Below, in pieces: positions 30,943-37,915 of a stretch of DNA of 38,581 nt (its first letter is position 1; each line of letters begins with the position of its first letter). Origin of the DNA: Leuconostoc inhae KCTC 3774. GTDB lineage: Bacteria; Bacillota; Bacilli; Lactobacillales; Lactobacillaceae. A program made the position numbers and the translations under genes. The stretch covers positions 1 to 38,581 of the forward strand of contig AEMJ01000793.1 in assembly GCA_000166735.2 (NCBI GenBank), written 5' to 3'. Below the pieces are notes generated by a model. It did not search any database. It worked only from the letters and a program-made list of their open reading frames with translations, and was not told where the DNA came from.

Positions 30943-32114
30943 TTAAAATGTTGGAATGACAACTTGCTTTTTAACTTTTGACAATTTTGCTTCATAATCG
31001 ATGCTGTCGATGTCGCGAACAATGTTGTTGTCTTGTATTAAATCAGTGATTGTTCTAGTACCCATTTTAGCCATATCTTCACGAACATTTGTCATGATCG
31101 TCGTTAAGACATCAATCAATGCACCTTTATATTGCACACGCGCCTCAATACCCTCTGGTACCATTTTCTTTGCTTCATTAACTTCGCCTTGGAAGTAACG
31201 ATCTTTAGATCCAGCTTCCATGGCAGCAATAGATCCCATGCCACGATATGTTTTGTACTTTTTTCCATTATCTTCAAAAACAATGCCCGGTGTTTCCTCT
31301 GTCCCTGAAAACATTGACCCTAACATTACCGCGTTGCCACCAGCAGCAAGTGCTTTAACAATATCTTTTGATGTTTTAGCACCACCATCAGCAATGATAG
31401 ATTTGCCACGTCTGGCAGCTTCAATAGCTGCATCACGAACAGCTGAAATTTGTGGTACGCCAATACCTGCAACAACACGCGTTGTACAAATTGAACCTGG
31501 TCCAATGCCAACTTTAACAACATCAGCCCCAGCATCATACAACGCCGCTGCACCATCTGTAGTCGCAATGTTTCCCGCAATAATATTGAGTTCAGGGAAA
31601 GCGTCACGAACTTCTGACACTTTACGCAAAACACCCTCTGAATGGCCATGTGCTGAATCTAATACAATAGCATCTACACCAAATGCAACCATTGCTTCGA
31701 CGCGCTTTACTGTATCAGATGTTACACCAACTGCACCAGCAACTAGCAAACGGCCTTGTGAATCAATAGCAGCATTAGGATATTTCACAGCATCAAATTC
31801 TGCCATTTTAACTTGCTTAATTTCATCTGCCTGTTCAGCAATTGTCATATTTTTATGGACGACGCCCAAACCACCAAGTTTTGCTAACGCTATGGCAAAA
31901 CGTGATTCTGTTACAGTGTCCATTGCTGCTGAAAGTAAAGGCAACTTTAAATTCAATGTTGGTGTAAGACTAGTTTCAACAGTCACTTCATCAACATTGA
32001 CAGCTCTTTTTGATCATAAACCAACTTGATATCATCAAATGTTAAGCCCATTTTTGCAAACTTGTTACGTGAGCTGAACTTAGGCTTTTCATCATCTAAG
32101 AAAAATTTTTGCAT
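30943..32114 (-). CDS. guaB: IMP dehydrogenase catalytic protein without CBS domains, frame broken once
   Basis: Oxidises IMP to XMP, the first step to GMP. ATG 32114 (MQKFFLDDEKPKFSSRNKF) follows GGAGG. The frame breaks at T-run 32007-32011 (5 instead of 6), after DDIKLVYDQK; corrected length is about 390. The barrel has AAMDTVTE, DSAHGHS (Asp153), the cysteine loop GIGPGSICTTR (Cys210), IADGG, MLGS, YRGMGS and the flap Arg-Tyr in KDRYFQ (306-307). The CBS pair (about 120 residues) is missing, replaced by a short linker. Unusually, the N-terminal LLVPxxS loop reads LVYDQKR, and after VQYKG the normal GGLRxGMGY...ESHPHDV end is replaced by unrelated sequence ending KKQVVIPTF. The adjacent paralogue carries those missing parts. 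Confidence 0.92.
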
Positions 32115-32552: not shown

Positions 32553-33452
32553 TTACATTTTCTCTAAACGCGCAATACGTTCTTCTATTGGTGGATGAGT
32601 ATCAAATAAATGTGCCTTTTTCTTTAATGGATTACTAATATATAAAGCCGCTGATGAAGGGTCAACATTTTGCATCGGCTTTGCTGAACCCAACTTACGT
32701 AGCGCAGAAATTAATTCTTCTGGATTACGCGTTAATTCAACACTACCAGCATCCGCTAAATACTCTCGATTACGTGAAATAGCCATTTGTATCATAGCCG
32801 CAACTAATGGTGCTAAAACCATCACCGCAATAGAAAAGACAAAAAGTAATATTTGCAAACCACCGCCACTGCTGTTATTATCACGATTATCGCGGTTACG
32901 ATTACCACTACCAAAAAACCACCAGTTACTGCCTAAATTAGTCAACAACGTAATTGCTGCGGTCAGTGCTAACGCAATTGTTGAGATACGAATATCATAA
33001 TTACGGACGTGACTCATCTCGTGCCCAATAACACCTTCAAGTTCATGGCGATCCATAATTGCTATCAGACCCGTAGTAGCTGCAACGGCAGCATTTTTAG
33101 GACTATTTCCCGTTGCAAAAGCATTAGGGCTTGCATCGTCAATAATAAACACACGTGGCATAGGCAGTTGTCCAACCATTGCCATATCTTCGACAGTGTG
33201 CCACAATTCCGGTGCTTGATCGGCTTGGGTAATTTCTTTACCATGATTCATTGCCATGACAACATTAGTAGAATTACTAATCATAATCACAGTATAAATC
33301 GCACCAATGATTAACGCACCCACGATTCCCATAGTAAGCGAATTTAATAGCATGTACCCTACCGCTGCGCCAACAATGCCAACTAGAATGAGAAAACCAA
33401 CCAAAAGCACGATGGTTCGGCGCTTATTTGATTGTATTTGCTCATATAACAT
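32553..33452 (-). CDS. htpX: Membrane zinc metalloprotease HtpX
   Basis: M48-family membrane protease for damaged membrane proteins. The 299-residue protein has two N-terminal membrane helices (about residues 12-58), the zinc motif HEMSH (144-148), two further helices around a Gly/Asn-rich polar loop (about 175-200) and [10 protein letters not shown] with the third zinc ligand. The C-terminal [11 protein letters not shown] is typical. It directly abuts lemA (shared base at 33452), the standard lemA-htpX pair. Confidence 0.96.
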
Positions 33453-34000
33453 TAAAATTTAACCGTAGGGACGTCTTTTTCAGTTTCTGGTACAGCAATA
33501 AATTCACTTGGTTCAAAATGATGTATTCCCGCGATGATATTGCTAGGAAACGACTGTAGCTTTGTATTATAGCTCGCCGTTGTCGTATTGAACAATTGAC
33601 GGGAATAAGCAATTTTATTTTCAGTATTAGTTAATTCTTCTTGCAGTTTTGTAAAATTAGCACTTGCTTTTAAATCAGGATAGGCTTCAGCAACAGCAAA
33701 TAAGTGCGTCAACGCACCTGATAGTTGGTCTGAAGCTGCCATAGTTGCAGCTGGACCTTGTGCACTATTAACACTTGTTCGTGCGTCAGTAACCGCTTGT
33801 AAAGTTGTCTTTTCAAAATCAGCATAACCTTTAACTGTGTTCACTAAATTAGGAATTAAGTCATTTCTGCGCTTTAATTGCACATCAATTTGGCTCCATG
33901 ATTCCTTAGTCTGCATGCGATATTTAATTAAACTATTGTAAATGCTAATCCAGATAATCGCAATCACTACAACTACGGCAATAATAATAACTAATGTCAT
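33452..34000 (-). CDS. lemA: LemA family protein
   Basis: A 182-residue protein with one N-terminal membrane helix (about residues 2-20) and a long helical LemA domain: [53 protein letters not shown] and [20 protein letters not shown] are family signatures. Function in bacteria is not defined; it is genetically tied to HtpX. A likely promoter, TTGACA (34095-34100) with CATAAG 18 bp further, overlaps the stop codon of the upstream unknown gene. Confidence 0.93.
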
Positions 34001-34096: not shown

Positions 34097-35012
34097 TCAA
34101 TCTACAAACACTTCACGCTTATCTTTTAAGCCAACTACTGTTAAGTGATCACTATACCACTGATAAAAAATGGTAATTGTTGAAATAACGTGTAAATGGT
34201 AACATCTCTATTATCATCTATAATATCATAAGTCCATTGTACATGCCCATCATTTATGTGATGTGTCGTTAATCTAAGTGATACTTCACCAATTGTAATG
34301 ACAGCACCAGATTTTTACCTGTCATACGTTTTAAAATAAATTGTTGCTTAGCACCGAGTACAAACAAACTATCCAAAATATTTGTGGACAAATCCTTTCG
34401 CAGCATTTCCAAATCAACCTGTTTTTGTGCATCAATACCCGGTAAATCAATATCATATGCTATCTCAGTGAATTGTGAGGCAATCGCTGTTAAACGTTTT
34501 TGAAATATGTCTAAAGCATCCAAACCAGCAAGTTGCACGGCTTGTGTTTGAACTAGTTTTGCAAACTGTTTTGTATCTAAATAAAAACGTTTATGCGCTA
34601 TATCCCAGTACAATACTCTTAGATTTTGTGCCGTTTCTACTAAATAATAACCACCCGCAGCAAGTGGGGCTTGCACAAAACGAAAGGTCGCATTCGGCCA
34701 CTCTGAAAAATGTAATTCCGCAACTTTTTGCGCGTTAGGCAAAACAACTTTAGTTGGTGACAATGATGCTTGATCAGAAATTTTTGCAAACGCAATAGTT
34801 ACCCAGTGTGTACTTGGAAACCAATAATCATTGTCAATCCGGACCATTTTAGACTGGTGACTATCGAAAGCTAGAATCTTTTGCAAAATAACAAGTAATT
34901 CTGGCATATTTTCAGTCATGCTTAACGCATCAATTAAAATTTGTAACTGATTAAACAAATCTAAATCTGCTTTTAATTGACTACTATATAATTGTGTCTC
35001 AAACTTATCCAT
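34097..35012 (-). CDS. Unrecognised 305-residue protein, third gene of an unknown trio, frame broken twice
   Basis: I do not recognise the family. The uninterrupted first part (247 codons to a stop at 34269) is soluble, with no signal or membrane segment. Restoring one base in T-run 34312-34316 and one in A-run 34165-34170 extends the protein through KKSGAVITIGEVSLRLTTHH and HVQWTYDIIDDNRDVTIYTL to VVGLKDKREVFVD, stop at 34097. The extension looks protein-like and both repairs follow the one-base-short pattern seen elsewhere, so the longer form is probably real. The start lies 6 bp after the coiled-coil gene. Rich in aromatic residues in the middle (YWFPSTHWVTIAF). No function is assigned. 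Confidence 0.65.
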
Positions 35013-35018
35013 TATTCA

Positions 35019-35384
35019 CTATTTCTGATCTAATTTTGCCATATATGACATATATATATGCTGCAATTCTGTGATAAAAGTTGGCACATCAACAAAATGT
35101 GCTAAAATCGCCTGTAATTCTAATTGTCGCAGTGTATCCTCTTTTTCAAACCTTAACAAATACGCTTGTTGTTTGTTCAGCTTTTCTTCAACTTCTGGCA
35201 CACGCTTTTGAGTTGCAACCAATAACTCTTGCTTTTTTTCTAATGCCTCTCGTGTCACTTTGTCACTACGTCCAAATAATCCTGATTTATTAGTGACCAT
35301 TTCTGATAATTGATCTTCAATGACTTGCAACTCTAATGAACGTTTTGTGTTATCGGCTAAAAAGGACTCTAAACCGGCTATCAC
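35019..35384 (-). CDS. Unrecognised 121-residue coiled-coil protein, second gene of the trio
   Basis: A small soluble protein that is helical almost throughout. Residues about 15-95 are charged heptad-like sequence (LELQVIEDQLSEMVTNKSGL, LEKKQELLVATQKRVPEVEE) compatible with a coiled coil broken by NKSGLFGRSDK. The end (LAHFVDVPTFITELQHIYMS) may be a small globular helix pair. No enzyme motif is visible. Its ATG overlaps the first gene's stop by 4 bp and the third gene starts 6 bp after its stop, so the three products are probably made together and may form a complex (inference). Confidence 0.75.
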   Translation of the reverse strand: MIAGLESFLADNTKRSLELQVIEDQLSEMVTNKSGLFGRSDKVTREALEKKQELLVATQKRVPEVEEKLNKQQAYLLRFEKEDTLRQLELQAILAHFVDVPTFITELQHIYMSYMAKLDQK

Positions 35385-35868
35385 TTTTTTACTTCTTGAA
35401 TTTTAGTTGTATTAATTGTCTCTGTCACAGGTAACTCGGATGTTTCTAAGAGTTCAGAAATAATTGCGTCATTACCTGTCAGTGTCACAGTTAACACATT
35501 TAAAGTTCCTAACTGTCGATGATCCCACCAATCACCTAAGTAAACATCATAAAGAGTCGCATTATCGGCAACAGGTTCCAATGTCAAAAAATCAAAATTT
35601 GTGACAATGTAGTTAATTAATTCAGGTGCCAAAAATGCTGCAATATCTTTTTTATATCCACGACTAAACAATCTAGCTGTGCCATAGATATTTCAGATGA
35701 TATGTTTTTGAATCTATCATTAAATTTATGCAAATCTATTAGCTGATAAACTTCTGATATTTGATTATTTTTAATGGCAGACTGCAAATCTCTTAAATAT
35801 GAAATTTTACGCTCTAATTGATTAACAAGTTCTGGTTGTAATATTGTTTGCGTGTCTTTAATTGTCAT
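35381..35868 (-). CDS. Unrecognised 162-residue protein, first gene of the trio, frame broken once
   Basis: Starts at ATG 35868 (MTIKDTQTILQPELVNQLER) behind GGAGG. The frame is lost at T-run 35648-35653 (6, probably 7) and then continues KKDIAAFLAPELINYIVTNF to IQEVKK. The N-terminal half is helical; the C-terminal half (DVYLGDWWDHRQLGTLNVLT) looks like beta strands. No membrane segment or known motif. The exact join is uncertain because two downstream frames are open around the break. Upstream are an extended -10 (TGCTAAAAT, about 35900) with TTAAGA 17 bp earlier and a perfect palindrome at 35932-35943. Confidence 0.65.
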
Positions 35869-35931
35869 TTTATGCCTCCACTATGCACAAATCTTAATTT
35901 TAGCATACACCAACTAGATTCTTAAAAATAG

Positions 35932-35943
35932 ACTGTTAACAGT
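35932..35943. promoter_or_regulatory. Perfect palindrome at the promoter of the unknown trio
   Basis: ACTGTTAACAGT is a perfect 12-bp palindrome a few bases upstream of the likely -35 (TTAAGA) of the trio promoter and about 20 bp after the flippase terminator. Its size and position suit a dimeric transcription factor; nothing identifies the factor. Confidence 0.4.
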
Positions 35944-35961: not shown

Positions 35962-35988
35962 AAAAAAACGATGATCTCTCATCGTTTT
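35962..35988 (-). terminator. Terminator after the flippase gene
   Basis: AAAACGATGA (35979-35988 on the minus strand) pairs with TCATCGTTTT (35965-35974) around GAGA and is followed by more Ts. The 5' arm includes the last codons and TGA stop of the flippase gene. Confidence 0.88.
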
Positions 35989-37915
35989 GGTCGCAACTTA
36001 GCTGGTATATATCGTATTTTATTACCTAATAAATCATCACCAAATCCCATACGCAAATACAAAATTATCACGACAATGCCACCAATAGCAGCACTAATCA
36101 GAGCAGTGATGGTAACTGAAACTTTTGTGTCCATTGGGAACAAAAAGTTACTCATCAAAAATACAACCACGTAAGAAACAATTGCCATAGTTGCTGCGCC
36201 AATAAATAATTGCCACAGTTCTTGACCAACAGAGGATAATGATACGCCATAAGCCGCTTGAAGGTAATCCAGCATGTAAGCTATCGCAATTGCCATCCCA
36301 ATCATACTTGCTATCAAAGCCCCCATACCTTCAAAATACCGAATACTAGGTACTTGAAGTGCAATTTTGACTAACAAGCCCAAAACGAAAGCCTTGATAA
36401 CAATTGATACTTCCGATAATGCTTGAAGAACAAACGCCAATAACATAAACAAACTAAATACAATTGCTAATATCGTTGAAAACTGTAATAAGTAAATTCC
36501 CTCTTGGTTTGATACGTCAATTGGATAAAACATTTTGTAAAGTGGCGCCGCAATGGCAAACATTCCCAGTGCACTTGGAAACATAACCAATGCAAACAAT
36601 TTAATCACTTGTTTTAGCTGATCTTGAATATTTTCCCGTGTTAAAGTCGCTTTACTCCCGGAAAGCATTGGCAGTGCCGTTGCTGCAATACTTGTTGAAA
36701 AAGGTACAATAATCATAATTAATTTATTAGGATTTGCACTAAATAAGGCAAACTGAGTCTGCAGCTGTATATTAGTATTCGCAAAAAAATGATTCATGAT
36801 ATTAAAATAAGTATATTGATCTACTAATTGGAATAATGTTATTGCTGATCCAATAATAATAAATGGCCATGATTCTTTTAAAATATTAAAAATTAAACTT
36901 AATGTTGGCTTTTTGACATGTTGTGCATTTGAATATAAAGGTTTAATCAAAATATAGCGATATTTGAACCATCCCCAGATAAGCACTAACATACTAAATA
37001 TAGCGCCAATAAACGCCGCAAAAGTAGATTGTACAACAACACCGCTCCAATTACCAGGATTAACTCGCAAAATAATAACAGCTGTAACTAGCATGTAAAT
37101 AACACGCGCAATTTGTTCTATAACCTGTGACAATGCCGAAATACTCATGAGCTGATAGCCTTGAAAGATACCACGAAGCATAGACATCAACGGGAAGATA
37201 GCAACAGCTGGTGCTAGTGAATGTAAAACTGGAATAAAATTGGCATTTCCCATAGAAAGTATGGGTGTCAAAAGATAGATCGCGGAACCAAATACAATTC
37301 CTAATATGACCCCTAATATCATAGATTGCCGCATAAGTTGACGAGATTGATATATATCATGCCTTGCATTAAATTCTGCCACTAATTTTGAAATTGCAGC
37401 TGGAACGCCAAACGTCGCGATCGCCAAAAAAATTGCATAAATGGTGTATCCTTGTGAGAATAAACCATTAGCACGGTTAGAATTAGAACCCAGTAATGCC
37501 ATCCAAGGCACAATATAAATTGCTCCCAATATACGCGATACAATATTACCAACAGACAACCAAGCTGATCCTTTTACTAGCGTTGCTTGATTACTATCCT
37601 TTGCTTGTTGTTCCATATCAAGTGTAGGCATTTTTTCAGAAAAAGGGTCTACTTTTTGATTCTGAACAAGACTTGGCTTTTTCTTAATGATTTGCTGACG
37701 AGATTGATCGTTTTTAGCTTTAATTGCTGCAATTTCATCAGGCGTTAGCAGTCTTTTTTTAGTGTTTTTTGGTCTGATGATTGTTGCTTTTTTTGAACCC
37801 GTTGCTGTGCACGTGCTAATATTTCATCCGCGCTTAATATTTGACCATCAACATTAATTTTATCAACGTGTTGACTTCGCATTTTCAGATCACCTGGACG
37901 CTGTTCATCCGCCAT
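35979..37915 (-). CDS. MurJ/YtgP-like lipid II flippase family protein, frame broken once
   Basis: Polytopic membrane protein of the MOP flippase superfamily, probably moving lipid-linked cell-wall precursors. ATG 37915 (MADEQRPGDLKMRSQHVDKI) follows GAGGAG. The frame breaks at T-run 37754-37760 (7 instead of 8) after SSDQKTLKK, then runs on; corrected length is about 645. The membrane part begins LVKGSAWLSVGNIVSRILGA near residue 112 and shows about 14 helices, matching YtgP-type proteins of about 545 residues. The first 100 residues are a hydrophilic, Gln/Lys-rich extension not typical of the family. leuS lies upstream with 77 bp between. Confidence 0.88.

Follow-up and report, generated by a model that had tools for sequence, protein, structure and literature searches.

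The DNA analysed here, a stretch of 38,581 nucleotides referred to as the window, is a contig from the Leuconostoc gelidum group and belongs to a draft assembly of 893 contigs. On its minus strand, positions 34097 to 35868 hold genes of unknown function between a flippase gene and lemA-htpX, a placement which the original prediction had made and which reading frames and profile matches confirm. The gene of a Polysacc_synt/MurJ-like flippase lies upstream (35979-37631), and lemA (33452-34000) and, beyond it, htpX (32553-33452) follow on the downstream side, all three being assigned by family matches. At the named Leuconostoc loci the order is leuS-like gene, flippase, gene A, gene B, lemA, htpX and guaB-like gene, the outermost genes being ones which we take to be leuS-like and guaB-like.

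The locus had been described as three genes encoding proteins of 162, 121 and 305 residues, and it is close to certain that it is instead an operon of two. When intact, gene A (35019..35868, minus strand) encodes 283 amino acids and gene B (34097..35012, minus strand) encodes 305. In the window, gene A is cut by single-base losses in homopolymer runs near 35384 and 35647, and the frames of 162 and 121 amino acids are its two ends. Gene B has lost single homopolymer bases at 34164 and 34311, near its 3' end, which leaves a frame of 247 amino acids; the 305-residue frame reported for the window crosses stops beyond residue 247, which points to frameshifts. The best-segment identity of gene B is 90% to L. 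gelidum subsp. gelidum KCTC 3527, 88% to L. inhae and 99% to a genome of the same species (G004), in which one 283-residue ORF (A) and one 305-residue ORF (B) are both intact and lie 6 bp apart. Between the operon region and that genome (locus L008), 1,980 of 1,985 columns are identical; there are 0 substitutions, and the other five columns are losses of one base each in A/T runs. Over the whole window (38,612 aligned columns) the two genomes differ by 2 mismatches and 29 indels; every indel lies in a homopolymer run, and 26 affect one base in a run of at least 4.

That the three genes are real and the frameshifts true features of the strain has next to no probability. The three frames are present as such in the window assembly, yet A and B are intact as two genes in 18 of 18 other Leuconostoc genomes, and the differences from the window's own species are confined to homopolymers apart from just two mismatches; on the intact form in relatives and the homopolymer-only indels, three separate genes were rejected. 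The supposed 4-bp overlap (35381..35384, minus strand) falls within gene A and is an artefact, while the 6-bp gap between the frames of 121 and 305 amino acids is real and is the same spacing that separates A and B in G004. In 17 of the 18 other Leuconostoc genomes (L008-L025), A has 273-302 amino acids and B 304-307, both intact and 0-12 bp apart; the 18th (L017), which a length filter removed from the first comparison and which the second recovered, likewise has an intact A of 302 and an intact B of 305 amino acids. Other frames of the window are probably broken by homopolymer errors too, for instance the presumably guaB-like gene near 32006. The window is thus an example of how such errors in draft assemblies create false genes and false translational overlaps.

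Of the promoter and palindromic operator that had been proposed upstream of the genes, a promoter-like site was found and the operator was rejected. The site (35897..35925, minus strand) consists of TTAAGA, 17 nt and TAAAAT preceded by TG, and the TATGCTAA of its -10 region is invariant across 12 aligned Leuconostoc upstream regions; it is a consensus match, one of 15 such sites found where 10.6 are expected by chance. The palindrome ACTGTTAACAGT (35932..35943, no strand) does exist in the window, yet among the 12 aligned sequences it is complete only there and in G004 (L008) and absent as a full palindrome from all 10 others, so that it is unconserved beyond the species and was rejected as an operator. 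A terminator-like hairpin (35965..35988, minus strand) lies 3' of the flippase gene and upstream of A.

The expectation that the products belong to no recognised family holds after profile and structure searches, for two proteins and not three. Searches of Pfam, NCBIfam, PADLOC and PHROGs gave nothing above noise for A or for B. The noise in Pfam includes DUF745, touched by 9 of 13 A proteins (best E 0.0036), and fragment matches with E of 0.002-0.1; all of these, DUF745 included, lie below the curated cut-offs where cut-offs are shown. Searched by sequence against solved structures, A reached best E-values of 0.039 and 0.042 and the Leuconostoc B profile found no match; with a wide B profile, two designed PPR repeat proteins came up at E of about 4e-5, which we regard as chance because no stretch passes on its own. 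A relationship between A and B themselves was rejected as well (hhalign probability 0.2, E 0.3). The predicted lack of membrane segments is also borne out, again for two proteins, with no hydrophobic 18-mer in 73 A and 73 B proteins.

Structure models were made with AlphaFold2 from 8 sequences for A and 7 for B. In the model of A (pLDDT 84.5), helices are followed by an alpha-beta4-alpha part, which holds a conserved G-[ND]-W-W loop, and then by a coiled-coil hairpin; that of B, of middling quality (pLDDT 74.2), has a helical N-terminus and then two alpha/beta parts. Foldseek gave no match at E <= 1e-3 for either model. VIA gave middling rows, in which A was paired with coiled coils and B with KA1-like sheets, and these rows span mainly residues 129-280 of A and 160-292 of B, so that the remaining parts, barely covered, may have known folds. 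Residues 202-292 of B gave matches to the KA1 / AMPK alpha C-terminal fold at Foldseek E 0.02-0.3 (on a model of pLDDT 74) and at VIA Z of about 5-6 over 82-94 residues, a level that is common by chance. Residues 151-283 of A align with the CT398/HP0958-type proteins (4ilo, 3na7) at Z 10.8 and rmsd 8.5 over 130 residues, within the range that helical hairpins reach by chance. Proteins of that type are coiled-coil hairpins that carry a zinc ribbon, for which A has no counterpart, CxxC being found in 1 of 73 A proteins.

In CP033372.1, a public record of Limosilactobacillus fermentum, gene A is annotated as 'exonuclease SbcC', and the order there is glnA, 'exonuclease SbcC', a hypothetical protein, 'dUTPase', TetR and rplU. 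It could be argued from this label that A is a nuclease subunit of the SbcC/Rad50 type and that A and B, perhaps with the product of the neighbouring gene, form a DNA repair complex; Rad50 is indeed the top Foldseek row for the coiled-coil part of A (E 0.042), and a neighbour related to dUTPases hints at DNA precursors. We consider this improbable. The likeness to SbcC/Rad50 is limited to the coiled-coil part, and coiled coils yield many unrelated matches. The Walker A motif of SbcC/Rad50 is missing from A (0 of 73 proteins) and from B (0 of 73), and no ATPase or nuclease family was matched, the SbcC/Rad50 family being absent among the matches at E <= 1 of 13 A proteins in Pfam and of two in NCBIfam. 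With just 230-330 amino acids, A is also about a quarter of the length of SbcC or less. The identity of A as the SbcC nuclease was rejected on the missing motif and the missing profile match.

Other identities were rejected as well. A defence system finds no support in PADLOC, which was negative for six A, B and C proteins (C being the third gene described below), the best match having E 0.0026 and 15.6 bits over 46 coiled-coil residues. A phage gene was dismissed with A unmatched in 50,697 phage records. Two IMG/VR contigs do carry A (L137:2974-6479 and L138:2959-3840), beside genes that look prophage-like by eye, and in the first of these B- and C-like ORFs adjoin A, with an integrase-like ORF, also judged by eye, beyond them; prophage edges next to the locus are the likelier explanation. 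A plasmid gene was likewise dismissed, A occurring in 1 of 72,556 plasmid records, the 760-kb L. fermentum DR9 'plasmid' of CP033372.1. At the locus (419628-432518; L175), this record carries rplU, an rpmA-like L27 gene, nusB and glnA, and may therefore be a piece of chromosome.

In the genomes searched, the pair is found only in the Lactobacillaceae. By profile search, 195 of 301 genomes of this family carry A and 179 carry B, and each gene is represented in 24 of the 40 genera; the difference corresponds to 16 genomes of two genera (g12 and g33) in which B is very divergent. At the level of the order, B was found in 16 of 246 genomes, all 16 within the Lactobacillaceae, and at the level of the phylum (299 genomes) A was found in the window's own genome only. 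A set of 60 loci outside Leuconostoc (L066-L125) was hand-picked from the hits of A and B to spread the genera, and the third gene was not used for the choice. A and B are adjacent in 60 of these 60 genomes, as they are in 18 of 18 other Leuconostoc genomes, and at six divergent loci (L169-L174) a B-like ORF lies directly after A in 6 of 6 (E 1.5e-7 to 3.4e-4).

Of 20 loci compared together with some 6 kb of flank, 14 have glnA close to the pair and 10 have rplU; neither Leuconostoc nor the divergent pairs share the glnA neighbourhood. Very divergent adjacent pairs (L169-L174, L176-L182) are found in genera g11, g12, g17 and g33, away from glnA and in other contexts. In genus g29 (L078, L086-L090), A has only 230-235 amino acids, its coiled-coil part is shortened and C is absent beside B. 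At one locus of genus g8 (L066:6926-7794), two ORFs of 141 and 102 amino acids stand in place of an unbroken A, which may be a pseudogene or the result of a sequencing error.

The constant pairing makes it likely that A and B are partners, most likely as subunits of one cytosolic complex to which A would contribute its long coiled-coil hairpin; both the physical association and the cytosolic place are inferred. Evolutionary distances of A and B covary weakly beyond control genes (partial r 0.43, p 0.034, n=12), in a comparison that covers 8 to 12 of the 20 loci, namely those carrying the control genes. The distances of A and rplU covary as well (0.52, p 0.02, n=8), and the covariation of A with B is thus not specific.

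Outside Leuconostoc, a third gene frequently accompanies the pair. A gene of one sequence cluster, here called C, follows B in 18 of the 20 loci that were compared with their flanks and in 53 of the 60 sampled genomes; of the seven without it, six belong to genus g29 and one to g8. The C protein of one locus (L077) matches PF08761 (dUTPase_2) at E 1.2e-19, and such a match was obtained at E <= 1 for 16 of 35 C proteins; searched by sequence against the PDB, a mixed C profile found no dimeric dUTPase (best E 0.044). PF08761 is absent from Leuconostoc (0 of 19 genomes), and no C-like ORF was seen beside seven divergent pairs, where one stretch measured only 3.5 kb. About 9 kb from a g29 pair there is an ORF of 121 amino acids whose match to the C profile is too weak for an assignment (L183:3233-3598, E 0.004). 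The absence of C from Leuconostoc, from the g8 and g29 loci and from beside the divergent pairs indicates that C is not needed for A-B. The three-part system that had been proposed is therefore wrong for the window, which encodes two proteins only; the third gene of other genera is not among the three described and is related to dimeric dUTPases, and Leuconostoc does not have it.

In the dimeric dUTPase of C. jejuni, the metal-binding acids are Glu46, Glu49, Glu74 and Asp77 (PMC2954211). By motif reading, the equivalents in the C protein of L077 are E42, E45, E76 and D79. The same four acids (EEED) are complete in 26 of 53 C proteins and no longer so in 27 of 53, which by this four-acid test would be relatives of dUTPases and not dUTPases. 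All 27 degenerate proteins score at least 67 bits against a profile of the intact ones, compared with at most 5.5 for shuffled copies. In a quick tree of A and B, the label intact or degenerate changes 7 times, all 7 changes being forced by starred branches; this tree has 72 rows, 13 from Leuconostoc and 59 of the 60 others, with L066 left out for its split A. A careful tree, which leaves out three long degenerate rows and keeps 3 of the 19 rows lacking C, has 6 changes, at least 5 of them forced. Counts of this kind fit loss and gain alike; we interpret the changes as losses, since the intact and the degenerate proteins have residues in common that are missing from outside dUTPases.

These residues emerged from a comparison, on our own alignments, of the 26 intact and 27 degenerate C proteins with 30 dUTPases of other Bacilli, the best-scoring matches. 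Twelve active-site positions (E42, E45, N48, F53, K54, W56, E76, D79, K168, N172, R175 and Y180) have a frequency of 1.00 in the intact and the outside proteins and are scattered in degenerate C. A second group, W93, H141, W143 and K148 (L077 numbering), is kept in all C subgroups, at frequencies of 0.89-1.00 in intact and degenerate C, whereas in the 30 outside dUTPases the commonest residue differs at each of the four. We read this group as a putative binding surface for A-B that has outlived catalysis. Protein binding in addition to catalysis has a parallel among dimeric dUTPases, in the staphylococcal phage enzymes, which are reported to bind the Stl repressor with their catalytic motifs conserved and with binding modulated by the substrate (PMC5608427). 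Unlike these, C has often lost its acids, and its proposed partners are unrelated proteins.

A different explanation would be that C is a redundant dUTPase in the course of being lost. Selection would have relaxed in the presence of a trimeric dUTPase, and the active site would have decayed first and the gene vanished later; its place beside A-B would be mere history, and A-B would be unconnected with it. The trimeric dUTPase (PF00692) is present in 62 of 62 genomes tested, all 53 holders of C included, which makes C redundant as an enzyme and its catalysis dispensable; Leuconostoc manages without C; in all six pairs compared, degenerate C changes more quickly than A and B do, with dN/dS reaching 0.37 in one of them; and beyond control genes C covaries neither with A (-0.01) nor with B (0.07). 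Over 53 genomes the partial correlations are low (A-C 0.19, B-C 0.23, no significance attached). Against decay, degenerate C is a full-length open frame in 27 of 27 cases, across several genera, the two closest pairs have dN/dS of 0.069 and 0.097, and W93, H141, W143 and K148 outlast the loss of the active site. In three further pairs with saturated dS, the values are bounds of 0.14-0.20, for which a dS of 2.5 was assumed. Judged by these ratios, the degenerate C gene is still under purifying selection, and we consider the redundant enzyme an unlikely explanation that nevertheless deserves to be kept in mind.

The reading that we prefer, with somewhat more confidence than doubt, is that of a two-gene operon whose products would form a cytosolic A-B complex, with C as a docked partner that has lost catalysis repeatedly and is absent in Leuconostoc. 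The C product would most likely dock on A-B through the surface that ordinary dUTPases lack, formed by the four residues named above; its catalysis would have been lost several times, the gene being retained for a non-catalytic partner, and in Leuconostoc A-B would work alone. Taken by itself, the role of C as a docked third subunit is plausible, about even with its alternatives. A wider version is more tentative, and we hold it to be possible without favouring it: an undescribed complex of the Lactobacillaceae may have recruited a dimeric dUTPase to serve as a third, structural subunit, whose active site was lost independently several times, and the subunit may then have gone altogether in lineages such as Leuconostoc.

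The literature searched, a scope outside which most subscription journals lie, holds no paper recognisable by its title or the start of its abstract as dealing with the A-B locus; a passage of one paper mentions subunit D of SbcCD and not A. Neither of the two families has an assigned function, and each occurs in about 60% of the 301 Lactobacillaceae genomes sampled; one of them is labelled 'exonuclease SbcC' in the sole annotated record seen, a label which its sequence does not support. In 27 of the 53 sampled genomes, calling the gene at this locus a 'dUTPase' would be misleading. The repeated loss of the dUTPase active site beside A-B predicts a docking surface made of named residues and, if the proposal is true, the Lactobacillaceae would show, around a single conserved core, the natural stages that lead from an enzyme through a pseudoenzyme to its absence.
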